Below are positions 1-6,731 of a stretch of 6,731 nucleotides of DNA, piece after piece. The notes beneath the pieces are model-generated. The model was not told the DNA's origin and made no database searches. It saw only the letters and a program-made list of their open reading frames with translations. The number at the start of each line of letters is the position of its first letter. Within the stretch, counting starts at the first letter, position 1. The position numbers and the translations under genes were made by a program. The stretch comes from Clostridia bacterium (GTDB taxonomy: Bacteria > Bacillota_A > Clostridia > Oscillospirales > CAG-272): positions 1 to 6,731 of the forward strand of contig JAGBSQ010000022.1 of the NCBI GenBank assembly GCA_017631775.1, written 5' to 3'.

Positions 1-705
1 ACCGAAAGGACCGGGAACACAAGCAGTACCACCCTTTGCAATGGGGAAAAGCGCGTCGATAACACGCTGACCTGTGATCATCGGGTCAACGGGAGGTAGT
101 TTTTCTTTGTAAGGACGTGCTACACGAACAGGCCACTTTTGAATGAGTGTAATGTTCTCAATGGTGCCATCCTCGTATTTGATTTTACCGATGCGATCGG
201 TAACCTTAAAGTCACCCTCGCGCATTTCAACAATGGTTCCCTTTGTCTTGGGAGGAACCATGATTTTGTGCACAATAACTTCGTTTTCTTGAACGGTACC
301 GTAAATATCACCGGGGCCTACCTTATCGCCGAATTTAACGGCAGGAACAAAGCGCCATACGCGGTTTCTATCAAGTGCGGGCACGTCAATACCGCGTTGC
401 AGATTGGAACCGAACTTGAGTCGGATTTGCTCCAAGGGGCGTTGGATACCGTCATAGATATTGGAGAGAAGACCGGGGCCGAGTTCAACCGACAAGGGAG
501 CTCCTGTGGAAACAACCTTATCTCCGCGGCCAATACCTGCGGTCTCTTCGTATACCTGAATAGATGCGCGGTCGCCGTGCATTTCGATGATTTCACCGAT
601 GAGGTTGTTAGAACCTACACGCACAACGTCGAACATATTTGCATTTCTCATACCCTCGGCAACCACAAGAGGGCCCGAGACCTTTAGAATTTTTCCTTCT
701 ACCAT
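1..705 (-). CDS. ntpA: V/A-type ATPase catalytic subunit A, N-terminal part (runs off left edge)
   Basis: This is the nucleotide-binding catalytic subunit of the cytoplasmic V1/A1 head, which hydrolyses or synthesises ATP. Only the first 235 residues are in the window, out of roughly 590 usual for the family. Visible parts are the N-terminal beta-barrel (from MVEGKILKVSGPLVV), the segment GPGLLSNIYDGIQRPL, the A-subunit-specific insertion domain (about residues 110-185), and RPYKEKLPPVDPMITGQRVID. The last residues in view are VPGPFG, the start of the Walker A loop GPFGxGKT, so the catalytic lysine lies just outside. The ATG at 705-703 was chosen because it starts the conserved N-terminus and has an AGAAAGG-like site (724-718) 12 bases upstream. 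It is the last gene of the operon in view, 37 bp after subunit F. The open frame up to base 1 shows no damage. Confidence 0.97.
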   Translation of the reverse strand, partial: MVEGKILKVSGPLVVAEGMRNANMFDVVRVGSNNLIGEIIEMHGDRASIQVYEETAGIGRGDKVVSTGAPLSVELGPGLLSNIYDGIQRPLEQIRLKFGSNLQRGIDVPALDRNRVWRFVPAVKFGDKVGPGDIYGTVQENEVIVHKIMVPPKTKGTIVEMREGDFKVTDRIGKIKYEDGTIENITLIQKWPVRVARPYKEKLPPVDPMITGQRVIDALFPIAKGGTACVPGPFG

Positions 706-742: not shown

Positions 743-1063
743 TTATTCTTTAAACAGAATGTCAGCACCCACCGCGCGCTCCACAGCGGAACGGATGTTG
801 TTCATGCCGTAGCCGGTAGAGCCGCCCTGCCCTGGCAGAGAAATAACTGCGGGAAGGGGCATATCTTTATAGCGATTCATTTCTTCTTCAATCTGCACCG
901 CATAGTTTTCGGTAATGAAAATGGTGGCATACTGACCACTTTTTGCCATGGTGTGCAGTCTTTTTGCCGCTTCTTCGGCACTTTGTACGTCCTCGACAAC
1001 AAAGCCGAGAGCCATAAAGCCAAGCACCGTATCACGGTCTCCGATAATTCCAATTTTATACAT
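743..1063 (-). CDS. ntpG: V/A-type ATPase subunit F (called NtpG in E. hirae)
   Basis: This 106-residue protein is the small central-shaft subunit that pairs with subunit D and rotates inside the A3B3 head. Its fold is a CheY-like alpha/beta sandwich plus a C-terminal helix. Family motifs are clear: IGDRDTVLGFMALGF near the N-terminus (residues 7-21), the FITE strand in the middle, then LPAVISLPG, GSTGYGM and the C-terminal VERAVGADIL. Length is normal. The ATG at 1063-1061 (MYKIGIIGD) is preferred over an upstream in-frame alternative at 1102, because the family starts at this strand and AAAGGA lies 12 bases upstream. Its start overlaps the stop of subunit C by 8 bases (ATGTATAA), which suggests translational coupling of two shaft subunits. 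Symbols vary: atpF or ntpF is used for this protein in some annotations. Confidence 0.95.
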   Translation of the reverse strand: MYKIGIIGDRDTVLGFMALGFVVEDVQSAEEAAKRLHTMAKSGQYATIFITENYAVQIEEEMNRYKDMPLPAVISLPGQGGSTGYGMNNIRSAVERAVGADILFKE

Positions 1064-2051
1064 AGCTATCACGAATCCTTTCGCGAATAGTTGCGGTTGC
1101 AATCCCCGCCTCCTTGCCCGAGAGCAGGATGCGCAAATTCTTAACCTCGTACTCGTGAGCCGCCAAAAAGGCGATCATAACCTCAAGTCCGTCGGGAATG
1201 AATTTGTTTTCCAAGATCAGCGACATCCAATAGTTATCGGCAAGCTTTTCTGCGGTGCTGAGTGCTCCGTCTCCCTTTGCGAACTTCTCTGCAAAAGCAG
1301 AATAATTCGTGTGGGAAAGGAACATCCAAAGAGCATCCTCGCCCTTTGTCAGGCACTCGCTCAAGCGATCATAGGCGAGCGTTCCGCCTTCGAGAAAGGC
1401 TTCGGTGAAGAACACCTTGCCAACGTCGCCGCTCTTCATGCGCAAAATGCGCAAAGCGATCATAGCATTGAGCAAGTCAATTCTTGTTTGCACAAGGCGA
1501 ACGACGAATTCCTCGCCAGACGCTTTTGCCGCTGCGAGCATATCGCGCCAGCATGCCTTATCCAAAATAAGATCGATAACTTGCGGATTTTTGGTTTTTG
1601 CATATTCATCCATCGCGCGTTGAGCGGACTCCAGCAAGTTTGCGGGAAGTCTCTCATAAGTGCCCTGCTCTACCATTTTTACGATATCAGCCGCCGCAAG
1701 CGTACCAAAATCGAAAAGCATAGAGGTGGGGTCGATGCCGCGAATGAATGCTTTTTGCGCTGCCTTGAGATTGTTGCAATCGTATGGATACAGCCACAAA
1801 CGAAGCGCAATAGAATCGGGAGCGAGCTCTAAAAGGCGCGCATAAGCGCCCTTGAGAATACCCAAAAGGGTTTCCTCGCGCAAGATCTTTCCGTCCTCAT
1901 GGCTTCGAATGACGTTAACGCCCCAATCAGAGAGGAGCGACCACGCCTCGTCGGCATTTTTTGTGCCCAGCAATCTTTCGATGCGCTCGCGACCGATAAT
2001 CGCGTTTTCCAGTGTGCGAATATTGGCACTGCCAAATAAATAGTCAGCCAT
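1056..2051 (-). CDS. ntpC: V/A-type ATPase subunit C (d-type, AC39 family)
   Basis: This is the funnel-shaped adaptor that sits on the cytoplasmic face of the K ring and links it to the D-F shaft. At 331 residues it matches the usual family length of about 330. It is predicted to be almost entirely helical with no membrane segments, as expected for vATP-synt_AC39 (PF01992). Recognisable features are the N-terminal YLFGSANIRTLENAIIG...IERLL and repeated three-helix units such as DEYAKTKNPQVIDLILDKACW and LVQTRIDLLNAMIALRILRMK. The start at 2051 has GAAGGAG 11 bases upstream, in the 21-base gap just after the subunit E stop. Its TAA stop overlaps the next gene by 8 bases. The family is weakly conserved, so the call rests on these helical signatures and on its place between E and F. 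Confidence 0.93.
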   Translation of the reverse strand: MADYLFGSANIRTLENAIIGRERIERLLGTKNADEAWSLLSDWGVNVIRSHEDGKILREETLLGILKGAYARLLELAPDSIALRLWLYPYDCNNLKAAQKAFIRGIDPTSMLFDFGTLAAADIVKMVEQGTYERLPANLLESAQRAMDEYAKTKNPQVIDLILDKACWRDMLAAAKASGEEFVVRLVQTRIDLLNAMIALRILRMKSGDVGKVFFTEAFLEGGTLAYDRLSECLTKGEDALWMFLSHTNYSAFAEKFAKGDGALSTAEKLADNYWMSLILENKFIPDGLEVMIAFLAAHEYEVKNLRILLSGKEAGIATATIRERIRDSYV

Positions 2052-2072: not shown

Positions 2073-2756
2073 TTATGCTCTCGCCTCGAACAGTGTGCGA
2101 GCAACCTCGGACTCGAGGCTTTCGCGCAGCTGTGCGAAGAGAATTGCAAGAGAACAGTTGGACTCAACGCTGCCGCAACGCAAAACAAGACCACCGTCGA
2201 TGTTTGCGGTTTCACCGGCAAGGGTCAGGCGGTTCAGCTTTTCGGCAGATACTTTGCTCGCAAGGTGCTTTTGAACGCCTTCGATGACAAGCTTGCCGCA
2301 ACGGTCGCGGTCACGTTGATTAAAGAGAACCTCGTAGGATTCGGGAGCAAGTGCTTCCTCTTCACCGTAGAGGGTGCGGCTTGTCTCCTCGGATTCGAGT
2401 TGTTCGAGAAGAGCCGCGGACAAAAGTCCTATGAGAATTTCGTTATATTTTGCAAGTTCCAAATTGCGCGTTTGTTCCAAAACACCTGCAAAAACGCCGT
2501 CGATGAGGTCACTTTTGGTTTGCAGGAGCAGGTTGCGCTTGGTTGTTGCCGCCGTTGAACGAATACGTGCTACGTACTCCATTCCTCCCTTTTCTGCTTC
2601 AGTCGAAATTTCGGAACGGATCTTGTCGGCGCGCTCGGCGTATTCGGCGTTGATACGATCACACTCCGCTTGTGCATCTGCCAAAATTTTGTCGGCTTTT
2701 GCTTGCGCTTCGGAGAGGATCTTACCGGTAATTTTATTCAGTCCGTTAATTGCCAT
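2073..2756 (-). CDS. ntpE: V/A-type ATPase subunit E (peripheral stalk)
   Basis: This 227-residue protein is the peripheral-stalk subunit that clamps the catalytic head to the membrane part. Roughly residues 1-110 form a long charged helix rich in Ala, Glu and Lys (ILSEAQAKADKILADAQAEC and onward), which would form a coiled coil with the small protein at 5666-5346. The C-terminal globular domain ends with the family signature around IDGGLVLRCGSVESNCSLAIL followed by ESEVARTLF. It is slightly longer than the common ~200 residues. The start at 2756 is fixed by AAGGAGG five bases upstream. It follows subunit K by 40 bp and precedes subunit C by 21 bp. The frame is intact. Confidence 0.95.
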   Translation of the reverse strand: MAINGLNKITGKILSEAQAKADKILADAQAECDRINAEYAERADKIRSEISTEAEKGGMEYVARIRSTAATTKRNLLLQTKSDLIDGVFAGVLEQTRNLELAKYNEILIGLLSAALLEQLESEETSRTLYGEEEALAPESYEVLFNQRDRDRCGKLVIEGVQKHLASKVSAEKLNRLTLAGETANIDGGLVLRCGSVESNCSLAILFAQLRESLESEVARTLFEARA

Positions 2757-2796: not shown

Positions 2797-3285
2797 TTAG
2801 AGAACGAGCAGGATGGAGATGAGCAGTGCAAGAATTGCATAAAGCTCAACGAAGGATGCGGAGATAACTGCCTTACCAACAGCTTCGGGTTGCTTTGCGA
2901 GAACAGAGATACCTGCTACTGCTACTTCGCCTTGACGGAGTGCGGAGTACCAACCACCGAACGCGATGGGAAGAGATGCGAATACATAGTAGAAACCTTC
3001 AGCAATGGAAAGGTCAGCAGTGCCGCCCATAATGCCGCTGAAAACGATGATAAGGAATGCAACTACCATGCCGTAGATACCTTGGGTCATGGGAAGCGCT
3101 TGGAGAAGCATGGATTTACCGTACTTTTGGGGTTCTTCGCAAATAAGACCTGCGGTTGCTCTTGCAACGGAGTTTACTGCTTTTGCGGAGCCGAAGCCGG
3201 GGAGAAGAACTGCCAGAGCAGCACCCAAAATAGCCAGGTTGTTACCGGTGAAAAAGTTCTTGATAATTTCATAAATGGTTTGCAT
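2797..3285 (-). CDS. ntpK: V/A-type ATPase subunit K (two-hairpin proteolipid, probably Na+-binding)
   Basis: This 162-residue membrane protein forms the rotating ion-carrying ring. It has four transmembrane helices arranged as two hairpins (about residues 14-40, 60-84, 95-118 and 138-162). The ion-carrying glutamate is E147 in VELYAIL of the last helix; the first hairpin has no matching acidic residue, as is usual for two-hairpin V-type rings. From knowledge of the E. hirae ring, Na+ is held by Leu61, Thr64, Gln65, Gln110 and Glu139, with Tyr68 supporting. The counterparts here are L64, T67, Q68 (in LPMTQGIYG), Q118 (in LRQGEVAVAGI), E147 and Y71, all present. The loop between hairpins is about five residues longer than in E. 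hirae. AAGGAG lies nine bases before the ATG. Confidence 0.97.
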   Translation of the reverse strand: MQTIYEIIKNFFTGNNLAILGAALAVLLPGFGSAKAVNSVARATAGLICEEPQKYGKSMLLQALPMTQGIYGMVVAFLIIVFSGIMGGTADLSIAEGFYYVFASLPIAFGGWYSALRQGEVAVAGISVLAKQPEAVGKAVISASFVELYAILALLISILLVL

Positions 3286-3312: not shown

Positions 3313-4554
3313 TTATTGTTCTGCATTGGGTACATAAGAAGTGTCTTCCGAATATTCCTCTGCCGGAAGTGCAGGTTTGAAGGATTCGCCGCCATCCTCG
3401 TAGAATTTACCGAAGAACTCGATATATTGCAGACGAGCTGCATGCACGAACGTGCCAAGCAGGTTGATGGCGAGGTTAAGTCCGTGACCGAGGATCATAA
3501 TGACGAGCATAAAGATAAATCCAATAGGACCGGACGTGCCCATGCCTGTGAGCATATTGATAACCTGTGCAATAACGCTTGCTACAAGTCCGAGTGCCAA
3601 AATACGGGAGTAAGAAAGCAGGTCGGATGCAAAATTGATAAGAGAATACAGACCGCCAAGGCCCTTAATGAGCCAAGCAAATACCGTCTTCTCCCCTATT
3701 CCCTTTAAGAACAGGATCATTGCAAGTCCTGCTACCATCACATACATACCGATGCCCGACAAGCTTTGAAGCAGTGCTTCGGTTGCGGGAGCGAGAGGCT
3801 CGCTTGAGATCATTCCCGCAGCGGCCAGAGGTGCCATCATATCGATGCCTGCAAACATAACCCAATAAGGTACGTTTTCGCAAAGAGCAACAACAGGGTT
3901 ACCCTTCTTCCAAGTTTGCACCATGTTCACGGCCATGCCGGCAATCAGGTGGATCTCACCCATGCCCAAGGCTACAAACAGGAACGGAATGGAAGAACTG
4001 ACGGGGTTGAAGAACACACCGTTGCTAAAGAAGTGTCCGAGCGGCGTGTTGGCAGCTTGTCCCCCAAACTCAGGGAAGAAGTTGTTCATGATGGCAACCG
4101 GCAAATCACCGAACCATCCGCCAAACAGAACACCCATGATCATACAGGATATTCCGCAATACCCGAACATATAAAGCGTTCTCTTAAGTCCCTCCTTGGG
4201 ATTGAGAAGCTTAACACCGCCAAAGCAAGCAATTACCAAAAGCAGGCCGTATCCCACATCGGCAAACATCAAGCCGAAAATGAGGAAATAGAAGATGCCC
4301 ATGATAAAGGTGGGATCGAAAGAGCCGTACTTGGGATAAGAATACATTTCGATGACCCACTCAAAGGTAGATGCAAATGCATTGTTTTTGAGCAGTACCG
4401 GAACAACGTCTCCTTCCTCAGGCTCGGAAACCTCACATGCACATTCGAATGCGGAAAGGCCTGTGAGAACCTTTTGTTCTGCTGCCTCGGGCATCCAGCC
4501 CGCCAAAACAATGCAGTTTTGGGTGCAGTAAAGCTTTTGCTTTTGTAAGCACAT
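3313..4554 (-). CDS. ntpI: V/A-type ATPase subunit I, C-terminal part after an in-frame TAG
   Basis: This 413-residue frame carries the last part of the cytosolic domain and the whole membrane domain of the stator subunit (a/I, PF01496), which forms the ion half-channels beside the K ring. Conserved landmarks are GWMP (residues 19-22), the FDPT turn, FADVGYGLLL in the first membrane helices, and LFGGWFGD. SYSRILALGL follows, holding the key arginine R317 (codon 3606-3604). GHGLNLAINLLGTFVHAARL then holds the second conserved arginine R374, before IEFFGKFYEDGGESFKP. About eight membrane helices are visible and none is damaged. It is in exactly the same frame as the upstream part (5355-4579), separated only by TAG plus eight sense codons, so both are one gene. 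The coordinates given start at the first downstream ATG. No strong ribosome-binding site precedes it (GAGG 14 bases away, inside an inverted repeat), so independent translation is uncertain. Confidence 0.9.
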   Translation of the reverse strand: MCLQKQKLYCTQNCIVLAGWMPEAAEQKVLTGLSAFECACEVSEPEEGDVVPVLLKNNAFASTFEWVIEMYSYPKYGSFDPTFIMGIFYFLIFGLMFADVGYGLLLVIACFGGVKLLNPKEGLKRTLYMFGYCGISCMIMGVLFGGWFGDLPVAIMNNFFPEFGGQAANTPLGHFFSNGVFFNPVSSSIPFLFVALGMGEIHLIAGMAVNMVQTWKKGNPVVALCENVPYWVMFAGIDMMAPLAAAGMISSEPLAPATEALLQSLSGIGMYVMVAGLAMILFLKGIGEKTVFAWLIKGLGGLYSLINFASDLLSYSRILALGLVASVIAQVINMLTGMGTSGPIGFIFMLVIMILGHGLNLAINLLGTFVHAARLQYIEFFGKFYEDGGESFKPALPAEEYSEDTSYVPNAEQ

Positions 4555-4555
4555 A

Positions 4556-4574
4556 TTGAGGGTTGTGGCCTCAA
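4556..4574 (-). repeat. Inverted repeat (possible mRNA stem-loop) four bases after the ntpI TAG
   Basis: The coding strand reads TTGAGG, a seven-base loop CCACAAC, then CCTCAA: a perfect six-base-pair stem, extendable by one G-U pair. It begins four bases downstream of the TAG and ends one base before the ATG at 4554. No U-run follows, so it is not a terminator. Stem-loops just after stop codons are known in bacterial recoding (SECIS, and the debated PYLIS element). Here the role is pure inference, and a chance inverted repeat of this size is possible. If folded, it would also hide the only SD-like bases (GAGG) upstream of the internal ATG. Confidence 0.5.
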
Positions 4575-4575
4575 C

Positions 4576-4587
4576 GTCCTAAAGGAC
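4576..4587 (-). other. In-frame amber codon (TAG, 4581-4579) inside ntpI, in a palindrome
   Basis: On the coding strand the frame reads GAG GTC CTT TAG GAC GTT GAG, so the TAG is flanked on both sides by sequence of the right frame for subunit I. From memory of bacterial and archaeal relatives, this point is usually the Tyr of a 'YD' pair about 26 residues before the GW of the GWVP motif. The count here is exactly 26, so a one-base change of a Tyr codon (TAT or TAC) would give it. The 12 bases GTCCTTTAGGAC are an inverted repeat with the stop in its centre. Whether it terminates translation, is read through or is a sequence error cannot be told from this window. Confidence 0.9.
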
Positions 4588-5355
4588 CTCGATATCGTCC
4601 AAGCTCTCGGCAAGATCCATCAATTCTTCAACGATCTTTGCCATTTCGTCACTCAGCTGCGCTTGGCGTCTTTCCAAAGCATCGTGAGCGGCTTGTGCCG
4701 TGGTGGTGACATCGGGGAAGTTGACCTTGAGGAAAGCGGATTTATCGAGCACCGCCGTAACGGCTTCTTCATCCTCTTTGTGGTAGGTAACGGTAAAATA
4801 CTGTGTTTTGCCGTCATCCCAGACGTCTTCGACATATGCGCCTGCCGCCTCCAAGGCTTCCCAGTTGTAAAGTTTGACCGAACAGCTTCCCAGCTGCATA
4901 GCCGTGTGCGCCGATCCTGCCTCATTTAAGGGAGCATCGTAATTCAACCACGGGAAAAGGGATTGCATAGCACTTTCGTTGCGCGTTTGCTCGGCTGTGA
5001 TCTCGTCGGTGCGAGCCTTGAGCTCAAGCGTGCGCTCTACCGCACGGTATGCACGCTCTGCCCTGCCGTCGGCAACGAATGCCGCACGGTCGAGGACCTG
5101 CACACGGCGACCCAAGCCGCCACGGCGTGTGCTGTACTTAGCCAAACGAGGCATCGCCGCCTCGATGTGGGCTATGCGTTCCCTGATCTCGGTTTGTCTT
5201 CCATCGCTTTCAATTCGTTCGAGTGCGAGCTCTCCCGCTTCGGGCATGGCGCGCTGTATCTCGACACATTTGAGGTGGAGCATCCTGCGTACAATGGCAT
5301 CTGCGTCGCTTGCGTGAGCTAAGACGGTCAGTTTTTTCATTGCACTTATCGACAT
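4579..5355 (-). CDS. ntpI: V/A-type ATPase subunit I, N-terminal part ending at an in-frame TAG
   Basis: This 258-residue frame is the first part of the stator subunit's cytosolic domain, which contacts the peripheral stalks. It starts with MSISAMKKLTVLAHASDAD, the usual opening strand of the family, followed by long charged helices. The conserved region around LFPWLNYDAPL follows, then the strand-helix YFTVTYHKEDEEAVTAVL, and it stops in the returning helix DLAESLDDIEVL. An intact subunit I has about 650 residues; this part plus the downstream part would give 680 codons including the TAG. The product alone would lack the end of the cytosolic domain and every membrane helix. The ATG at 5355 overlaps the stop of the small stalk gene by 10 bases and has AGGGGG 11 bases upstream. 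The ATG at 5340 is an alternative start. Confidence 0.9.
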   Translation of the reverse strand: MSISAMKKLTVLAHASDADAIVRRMLHLKCVEIQRAMPEAGELALERIESDGRQTEIRERIAHIEAAMPRLAKYSTRRGGLGRRVQVLDRAAFVADGRAERAYRAVERTLELKARTDEITAEQTRNESAMQSLFPWLNYDAPLNEAGSAHTAMQLGSCSVKLYNWEALEAAGAYVEDVWDDGKTQYFTVTYHKEDEEAVTAVLDKSAFLKVNFPDVTTTAQAAHDALERRQAQLSDEMAKIVEELMDLAESLDDIEVL

Positions 5356-5666
5356 TTAGATGCTAACCCCCTGATTACGATTTTTTCTGCGCTTCTTTTG
5401 CGCAAGGATGCCTGACGAGTTATCTCTGCGGCCTCCTCTTTGGCTTCGGTCTCCAAACGATCGCGCAAACTGTCGGCACGCTCGCGCAACTGCACGATGA
5501 CCTCTTTTGCTGCTGCAATGGTCTCTGCCTCGGTGGTTTCGCAAAGAGCGATACCGTTTGCCTCGGCGTCAGCTACCATTTGTGCTGCTTTTTCTTGCGC
5601 TTCGCGCAGGATGCGCTCGGCCTCCTCTTCGGTTTGTTTTACCAATTTGATTGATTCTCTTGACAT
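5346..5666 (-). CDS. ntpF: V/A-type ATPase peripheral-stalk coiled-coil subunit (subunit G/H, NtpF type)
   Basis: This 106-residue protein is almost wholly a charged, Ala/Glu/Arg-rich helix (KQTEEEAERILREAQEKAAQ onward, to about residue 95), typical of the small stalk subunit that pairs with subunit E to form a right-handed coiled coil. It has no membrane segment. Sequence identity in this family is low, so the call depends on composition, length (about 100-115 is normal) and position: it is the first gene, immediately before subunit I, as in the E. hirae ntp operon. The ATG at 5666-5664 (MSRESIKLVKQ) is preferred over an in-frame ATG at 5693, because GGAGG lies five bases upstream of it and none is seen before 5693. 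The short basic C-terminus (SKCR) overlaps the start of subunit I by 10 bases. Confidence 0.88.
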   Translation of the reverse strand: MSRESIKLVKQTEEEAERILREAQEKAAQMVADAEANGIALCETTEAETIAAAKEVIVQLRERADSLRDRLETEAKEEAAEITRQASLRKRSAEKIVIRGLASKCR

Positions 5667-5680
5667 TAAAACCTCCGTTC
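5660..5680 (-). promoter_or_regulatory. Ribosome-binding site fixing the first ntp start
   Basis: The coding strand reads ACGGAGGTTTTAATG: GGAGG, five bases, ATG (5666-5664). This near-perfect site selects the start at 5666 over the in-frame ATG at 5693, whose upstream bases have no purine-rich site. Confidence 0.85.
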
Positions 5681-5701
5681 GGTTTCCCGTCATTTTTATT
5701 T

Positions 5702-5842: not shown

Positions 5843-6400
5843 TCAAAAGGCCTCTCCAACGCTGCCAAGTGGACTCTTCTTTTGTGCTCCCGGTGTCTCA
5901 TTTGTGGGATTTTTGTAGAAGATCAGCTCCTCTCCCTCGGGATAAACGCCATCCGGCACAAACGGCAATTCCCTCTTTTTAATGCCGCAACCAAACAGAT
6001 CCAATACCTGCCCCATGGGCAGAATGCTTTCCTCCAAAAGATTCCAAACGTGGGAGATCCTTTGGTAGCTGCTTTGTGTTTCCTCTCTTCGGCCCAGCAA
6101 ATAGGATTCGCAAAGAATGGCCATGTAATGCTCGCTTTGCCACGGAATGCGCATTGAAAAACGGTATTTTTGCGCCCTCCACAAGGCGCGCTCGTGCAGA
6201 TCCTCAAGGGATAAAAACTTGCTCCTGATGCGCTCGCCGTAAACCTCGGTTGCCCACGTCATGCACTTGTTTGCAAGCAGCTCATAGTATTTTTTGATCA
6301 CGTCCTTGCCCTCAGGCAAAACAAGCTCTGCCTCGGCGCGCAAAAGGACTTGATATCCTTCGCGCACGGTTGCGCGCATTTGTTCGGTGGTTGTATGCAA
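5843..6400 (-). CDS. Unknown protein, possible divergent DUF4163/DUF3298-like, TTG start
   Basis: This 185-residue protein is not firmly recognised. It has no signal peptide or membrane helix, so it is probably cytoplasmic. It starts with a helix-rich, acidic half (DVIKKYYELLANKCMTWATE, about residues 33-52). A middle part follows: RFSMRIPWQSEHYMAILCES, then ISHVWNLLEESILPMGQVLDLFG (115-137). The tail LPFVPDGVYPEGEELIFYKN (145-164) precedes a low-complexity end. The pattern of a strand, then 'W-x-L...G..L.L.DLF', then a segment rich in F, Y and P recalls DUF4163/DUF3298 (RsiV-like) proteins, but this is memory-based and weak. The start is TTG at 6400-6398: GGAGG lies eight bases upstream, while the next ATG (codon 8) is too far from it. 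It is the only gene here ending in TGA. It lies between a terminator and the ntp promoter, so it is probably its own transcription unit. Confidence 0.8.
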   Translation of the reverse strand: MHTTTEQMRATVREGYQVLLRAEAELVLPEGKDVIKKYYELLANKCMTWATEVYGERIRSKFLSLEDLHERALWRAQKYRFSMRIPWQSEHYMAILCESYLLGRREETQSSYQRISHVWNLLEESILPMGQVLDLFGCGIKKRELPFVPDGVYPEGEELIFYKNPTNETPGAQKKSPLGSVGEAF

Positions 6401-6497: not shown

Positions 6498-6731
6498 TTA
6501 TTGCGCTTTGCCGTATTGAATGCTTGTTACCGCTCCGTCGCGCAAAATGAATTGCAGATACATACCCTCACCGTTGTAGGTAAGAGCCGATGCGGTTTCT
6601 TGATCGGGCGTTCCGTAAGACGTAACAACAGCCTCTTTGGCATCACCGATGCGAATTCCCTTTTCGGTTGCAACGGTATCGTCCTGCAAAATGATCATGT
6701 AAACGAAATCCTCCTCGCCCATGGGGTAAGT
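6498..6731 (-). CDS. C-terminal end of an unrecognised protein (runs off right edge)
   Basis: Seventy-seven codons of the 3' end are visible, open to the last base of the window (TYPMGEEDFVYMIILQDD...). The ATG at 6722 has no visible ribosome-binding site and the frame stays open before it, so the true start is most likely outside. The pattern 'Y.I.L.DD.V.T..GI.IGD....V...YG.P' followed by 'Y......LQF.L.DG.V.SI.Y' is a beta-rich repeat that I recall from C-terminal domains of clostridial lipoproteins and other exported proteins of unknown function; that link is from memory. It ends with TAA and is directly followed by a strong terminator. Confidence 0.7.
   Translation of the reverse strand, partial: TYPMGEEDFVYMIILQDDTVATEKGIRIGDAKEAVVTSYGTPDQETASALTYNGEGMYLQFILRDGAVTSIQYGKAQ

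Follow-up and report, generated by a model that had tools for sequence, protein, structure and literature searches.

The subunit I gene of a V-type ATPase operon in this Clostridia bacterium contig is interrupted by a single in-frame TAG at codon 259. The stop is probably a base-call or assembly consensus error in a single metagenome contig, from a cell with an ordinary subunit I and a complete V-type ATPase. An error is more likely than a real mutation as the source of the TAG and is our first choice, a nonsense mutation being the second. Apart from this one-off stop codon, the V-type ATPase operon is an ordinary one.

Within the window, by which we mean the whole 6,731-nucleotide stretch that was analysed, the subunit I frame runs on the minus strand from 5355 to 3313 and holds 681 codons, with one interior stop and no frameshift. 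Eight sense codons separate the TAG from an ATG at codon 268, and the frame past the TAG stays open to its usual end. The original prediction had described an in-frame TAG with conserved sequence on either side; this is what we find, with no base gained or lost. Two landmarks that it named are also in place, with the Arg of YSR at codon 584 and GW beginning at codon 286, which puts codon 259 27 codons earlier; the terminal stop is TAA. The site of codon 259 presumably lies in the cytoplasmic half of subunit I, and in the window copy TAG259 breaks a frame that would otherwise encode the cytoplasmic and membrane halves as one continuous chain. When the two parts were searched as separate proteins, the 413-residue part reached 68.2 bits with PF01496 (cut-off 30.7) and the read-through protein 77.5 bits; the 258-residue part taken alone had no PF01496 match, and the NCBIfam models of V-type ATP synthase subunit I matched it weakly, under their cut-offs. 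At 4550-4587 of the window two small predicted stem-loops adjoin, one over the TAG and the other just before ATG268.

Table 1. Features of the V-type ATPase operon in the window. L001 is the nearest named relative.
Feature	Position	Strand	Basis or remark
Small subunit upstream of I, overlaps the start of subunit I	5346..5693	-	position; no Pfam match
Subunit I (ntpI/atpI), N-terminal part, 258 codons	4582..5355	-	60% identical to L001
In-frame TAG, codon 259	4579..4581	-	in no relative examined
ATG, codon 268	4552..4554	-	only other private residue of the window protein (against the best 120 of 1044)
Subunit I, C-terminal part, 413 codons from ATG268, with Arg584 and TAA end	3313..4554	-	83% identical to L001
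Subunit K, uninterrupted	2797..3285	-	NF005124 over cut-off
Subunit E, uninterrupted	2073..2756	-	alignment to L001; below NCBIfam cut-offs
Subunit C, uninterrupted	1056..2051	-	alignment to L001; below NCBIfam cut-offs
Subunit F, uninterrupted	743..1102	-	NF002384 over cut-off
Subunit A, cut by window end	1..705	-	alignment to L001; NCBIfam search

In the direction of transcription the operon reads small subunit, I, K, E, C, F and A, and the same order is seen by tblastn in L001, a contig from the MAG of a Clostridia bacterium found in roe deer cecum. The product of the small gene upstream of subunit I we take, from its position, to be G/H-like. The neighbouring genes had been described as full length, and the alignments to L001 bear this out, covering all or most of each: 235 of 235 residues for A (cut by the window end), 119 of 119 for F, 331 of 331 for C, 227 of 227 for E, 149 of 162 for K and 107 of 115 for G. 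Upstream of the operon lie two small proteins (5843-6400 and 6498-6731) without a Pfam or NCBIfam match; the former is kept beside the operon in L001, L002, L003 and L012 (46-56% identity), and the latter in L001, L003 and L012 (42-53% identity). A tRNA gene search of the window found none.

The read-through protein was used to collect homologues: 7999 candidates sharing most words were scored, 1044 of them matched, and the best 120 were aligned. A stop at codon 259 is found in none of these 120 full-length proteins. The residue there is Tyr in 104, Cys in 7, His in 5, Ser in 2, and Ala and Phe in one each; the 20 closest homologues among the matches listed all have Tyr. A list of full-length proteins is blind to relatives that carry the stop, which would be kept as two pieces, and for that reason the 258-residue piece was also searched. 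It gave 14 matches, and the only one that ends right before codon 259 is P0121, which is the window's own record; each of the others ends at another point, diverges or continues past the site. Among these, P0133 (37% identity, equal length) stops a few residues short of the site on a 981-base contig. The 413-residue piece returned mostly the same full-length proteins (best 120 of 4629). A partial JGI protein of 393 aa, P0135, which is 97% identical and comes from a 1714-base contig, starts at the Met of codon 288, just past the site; an upstream stop is possible there, and the contig edge would explain such a start. From the sequences compared, the TAG looks private to the window contig.

The same picture comes from DNA. 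Among 120 loci collected, 113 span the site and represent 104 distinct sequences; L046 falls short of it, and L115-L120 are release-factor loci. Codon 259 is a sense codon in 112 of the 113 and a gap in the remaining one. The comparison with close relatives that the original prediction proposed as a check therefore found the TAG in none of those examined (120 homologues, 113 loci). Its statement that relatives usually have Tyr at this place is right for the close ones (104 of the best 120 of 1044) and does not extend to the wider set, where a Tyr codon stands in 37 of the 113 loci and the others have mostly His, Ser, Ala, Cys and others. Several stops met along the way turned out to be natural gene ends. 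The interior stops reported by tblastn in L003/L083, L008 and L110, one in each, are read as such because they fall two or three positions short of where the alignment ends, and the single stops in G053 (L094) and G107 (via L017, same coordinates) lie one or two residues past the tblastn match; one further single stop is listed for G084, at a position that was not placed. A conserved split of the subunit I gene was also looked for among these genomes and not found, genes with two matches being mostly spanned by one open frame.

The TAG does not stand alone as a departure from the relatives. The nearest database protein among the matches listed, P0001, differs from the window at codons 259 and 268 only, and these two are also the only window residues absent from all 120 listed homologues (best of 1044); at codon 268 the window has Met, and the 120 have Ile (81) or Val (39). 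Two private residues are in themselves unremarkable across the 120 proteins, 79 of which have two or fewer and one of which (P0017) has six. They are notable, in this comparison of sequences, given how close the nearest relatives are and how the two cluster: each of the eight closest homologues among the best 120 has none, and a pair of positions drawn at random from 680 would lie nine codons apart or closer with P = 0.026. The pattern is compatible with a single local error (read or consensus) or a single local mutational event, and also with a stop that has a matching restart.

Since none of the relatives examined shares the TAG, it most likely arose through either faulty sequencing or a recent damaging mutation, and not through a new use of the code. 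We infer an error, rather than a real mutation, as the cause. A base-call or assembly error would have created TAG259 together with the private Met268, the cell's own subunit I gene would most likely be full length and ordinary, and the V-type ATPase of the cell would be ordinary and complete. It should be said against an error that the rest of the contig is clean, with the other genes uninterrupted, and that two clustered changes can stem from one real mutational event. A less likely possibility is that a single strain has acquired a real nonsense mutation very recently; this would truncate the chain to 258 residues, and the strain's V-type ATPase would be lost or impaired. Such a recent change would be expected to look as this one does, with a sense codon in every one of the 120 homologues listed (best of 1044) and the nearest of them otherwise almost identical, and the coding strand has a predicted stem-loop over the TAG (GUCC-UUUA-GGAC), small stem-loops being sites where template-switch mutations can arise. 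However, the energy of this hairpin is unexceptional (z -1.79; 9 of 200 shuffles fold equally well), the region folding only slightly more stably than shuffled sequence, no other decay is seen in the subunit I gene or its neighbours, and the TAG lies close to a second private change, as it would in a local error. Because codon 259 tolerates several residues, the harm done by the TAG, if it is real, would come from truncation and not from the loss of a key side chain. Met268 also invites a different thought, since it supplies an in-frame ATG eight sense codons past the stop: subunit I could be made as a split protein that stops at TAG259, restarts at ATG268 and assembles from two chains. We consider this improbable, as none of the 120 homologues (best of 1044) and none of the 113 loci is split at the site, and a predicted stem ahead of ATG268 would mask the upstream GAGG. 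We know of no split subunit I. The more elaborate proposal, that TAG259 and Met268 are a matched pair through which stop-and-restart yields two chains, the N-terminal one binding the stalk and the C-terminal one lying in the membrane, in a pump that works, is more improbable still.

The least probable reading of all is that UAG is read as an amino acid, whether by a suppressor tRNA, as pyrrolysine or through reassignment. Recoding is not supported, because the TAG looks private, RF1 is kept and no CUA tRNA was read in G001, and PylS is over cut-off in none of 192 genomes. G001, the genome of the nearest species (74% identical in the subunit I protein), served here as a stand-in for the window's own. 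In favour of recoding, TAG is a rare terminator in G001, closing 9 of 271 non-overlapping ORFs of at least 150 aa (379,746 bases, L155-L174), with TAA at 148 and TGA at 114, and the other complete genes of the window end in TAA (7, counting the end of subunit I itself) or TGA (1). The scarcity of TAG next to TGA in G001 is seen despite the 50% G+C of these stretches. Nevertheless, TAG does close genes there: it ends a PocR/AraC-type regulator gene nine residues past the DNA-binding domain. This was one of four TAG-ended ORFs scanned out of the nine; another is an HTH_3 protein, and the remaining two are without a Pfam match and may not be genes. The nine gene frames of the window hold 71 TAT/TAC codons and one TAG, which suggests that TAG does not stand for Tyr, as such a ratio is not expected in that case, though nine genes are few. 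A missing RF1 gene (prfA) had been put forward as one sign of recoding, and RF1 is present in G001, with GGQ and PxT motifs as we read them; it is over cut-off in four of five related genomes, G001 included. In G002 (L119; a 62% relative), possibly an incomplete MAG, the only prfA match is below the cut-off (250.5 bits) and may be prfB (RF2). The amber-suppressor tRNA that had likewise been suggested is not among the G001 tRNAs read, where 35 of 36 matches were given an anticodon, in no case CTA; ARAGORN did not call the remaining match, a weak one of 31.9 bits. As read, the set is incomplete, with no Asp, Asn, Phe or Ile label, so that a tRNA may have been missed and the absence of a CUA tRNA is weak evidence. 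The suggested pylTSBCD genes were sought as PylS, for which none of the 192 genomes of G001's family is over the cut-off (the search control was over it in 1 of 14); matches below the cut-off in 146 genomes are read as other class II synthetases. Near matches were absent from a phage search with the subunit I gene and from a plasmid search with the whole window, viral contigs gave no relative, and the portions of the literature available to us held nothing bearing directly on such a case. Of the four causes offered in the original prediction, the tests point to recent mutation and base-call error; suppression and true recoding, with the TAG in no relative examined, are not supported. By its own rule, a TAG absent in the relatives examined, with no suppressor tRNA read in G001, would be an error or else a plain nonsense change.

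A TAG that was both genuine and tolerated would point to a pump subunit that is split or suppressed. The lesson we draw is to compare near-identical sequences first, before proposing recoding, whenever an otherwise intact operon shows a single stop. The case resembles those in which a metagenome contig carries a singleton nonsense change or a consensus error, in that it occurs in one contig only and near-identical intact copies exist; no difference from that kind of case was found. As for V-type (V/A) ATPase subunits I of known structure, close ones include a chain of PDB 8wci, which we take to be Enterococcus NtpI, and one of PDB 5y5x. A profile of 14 homologues (from the best 120) matches 8wci_P over positions 1-670 of 680 (E 3.7e-71), and Arg584, kept in the window, is invariant in those 14. 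Where the window has TAG at codon 259, the aligned residue of 8wci_P reads Glu, which indicates that the position itself tolerates several residues.
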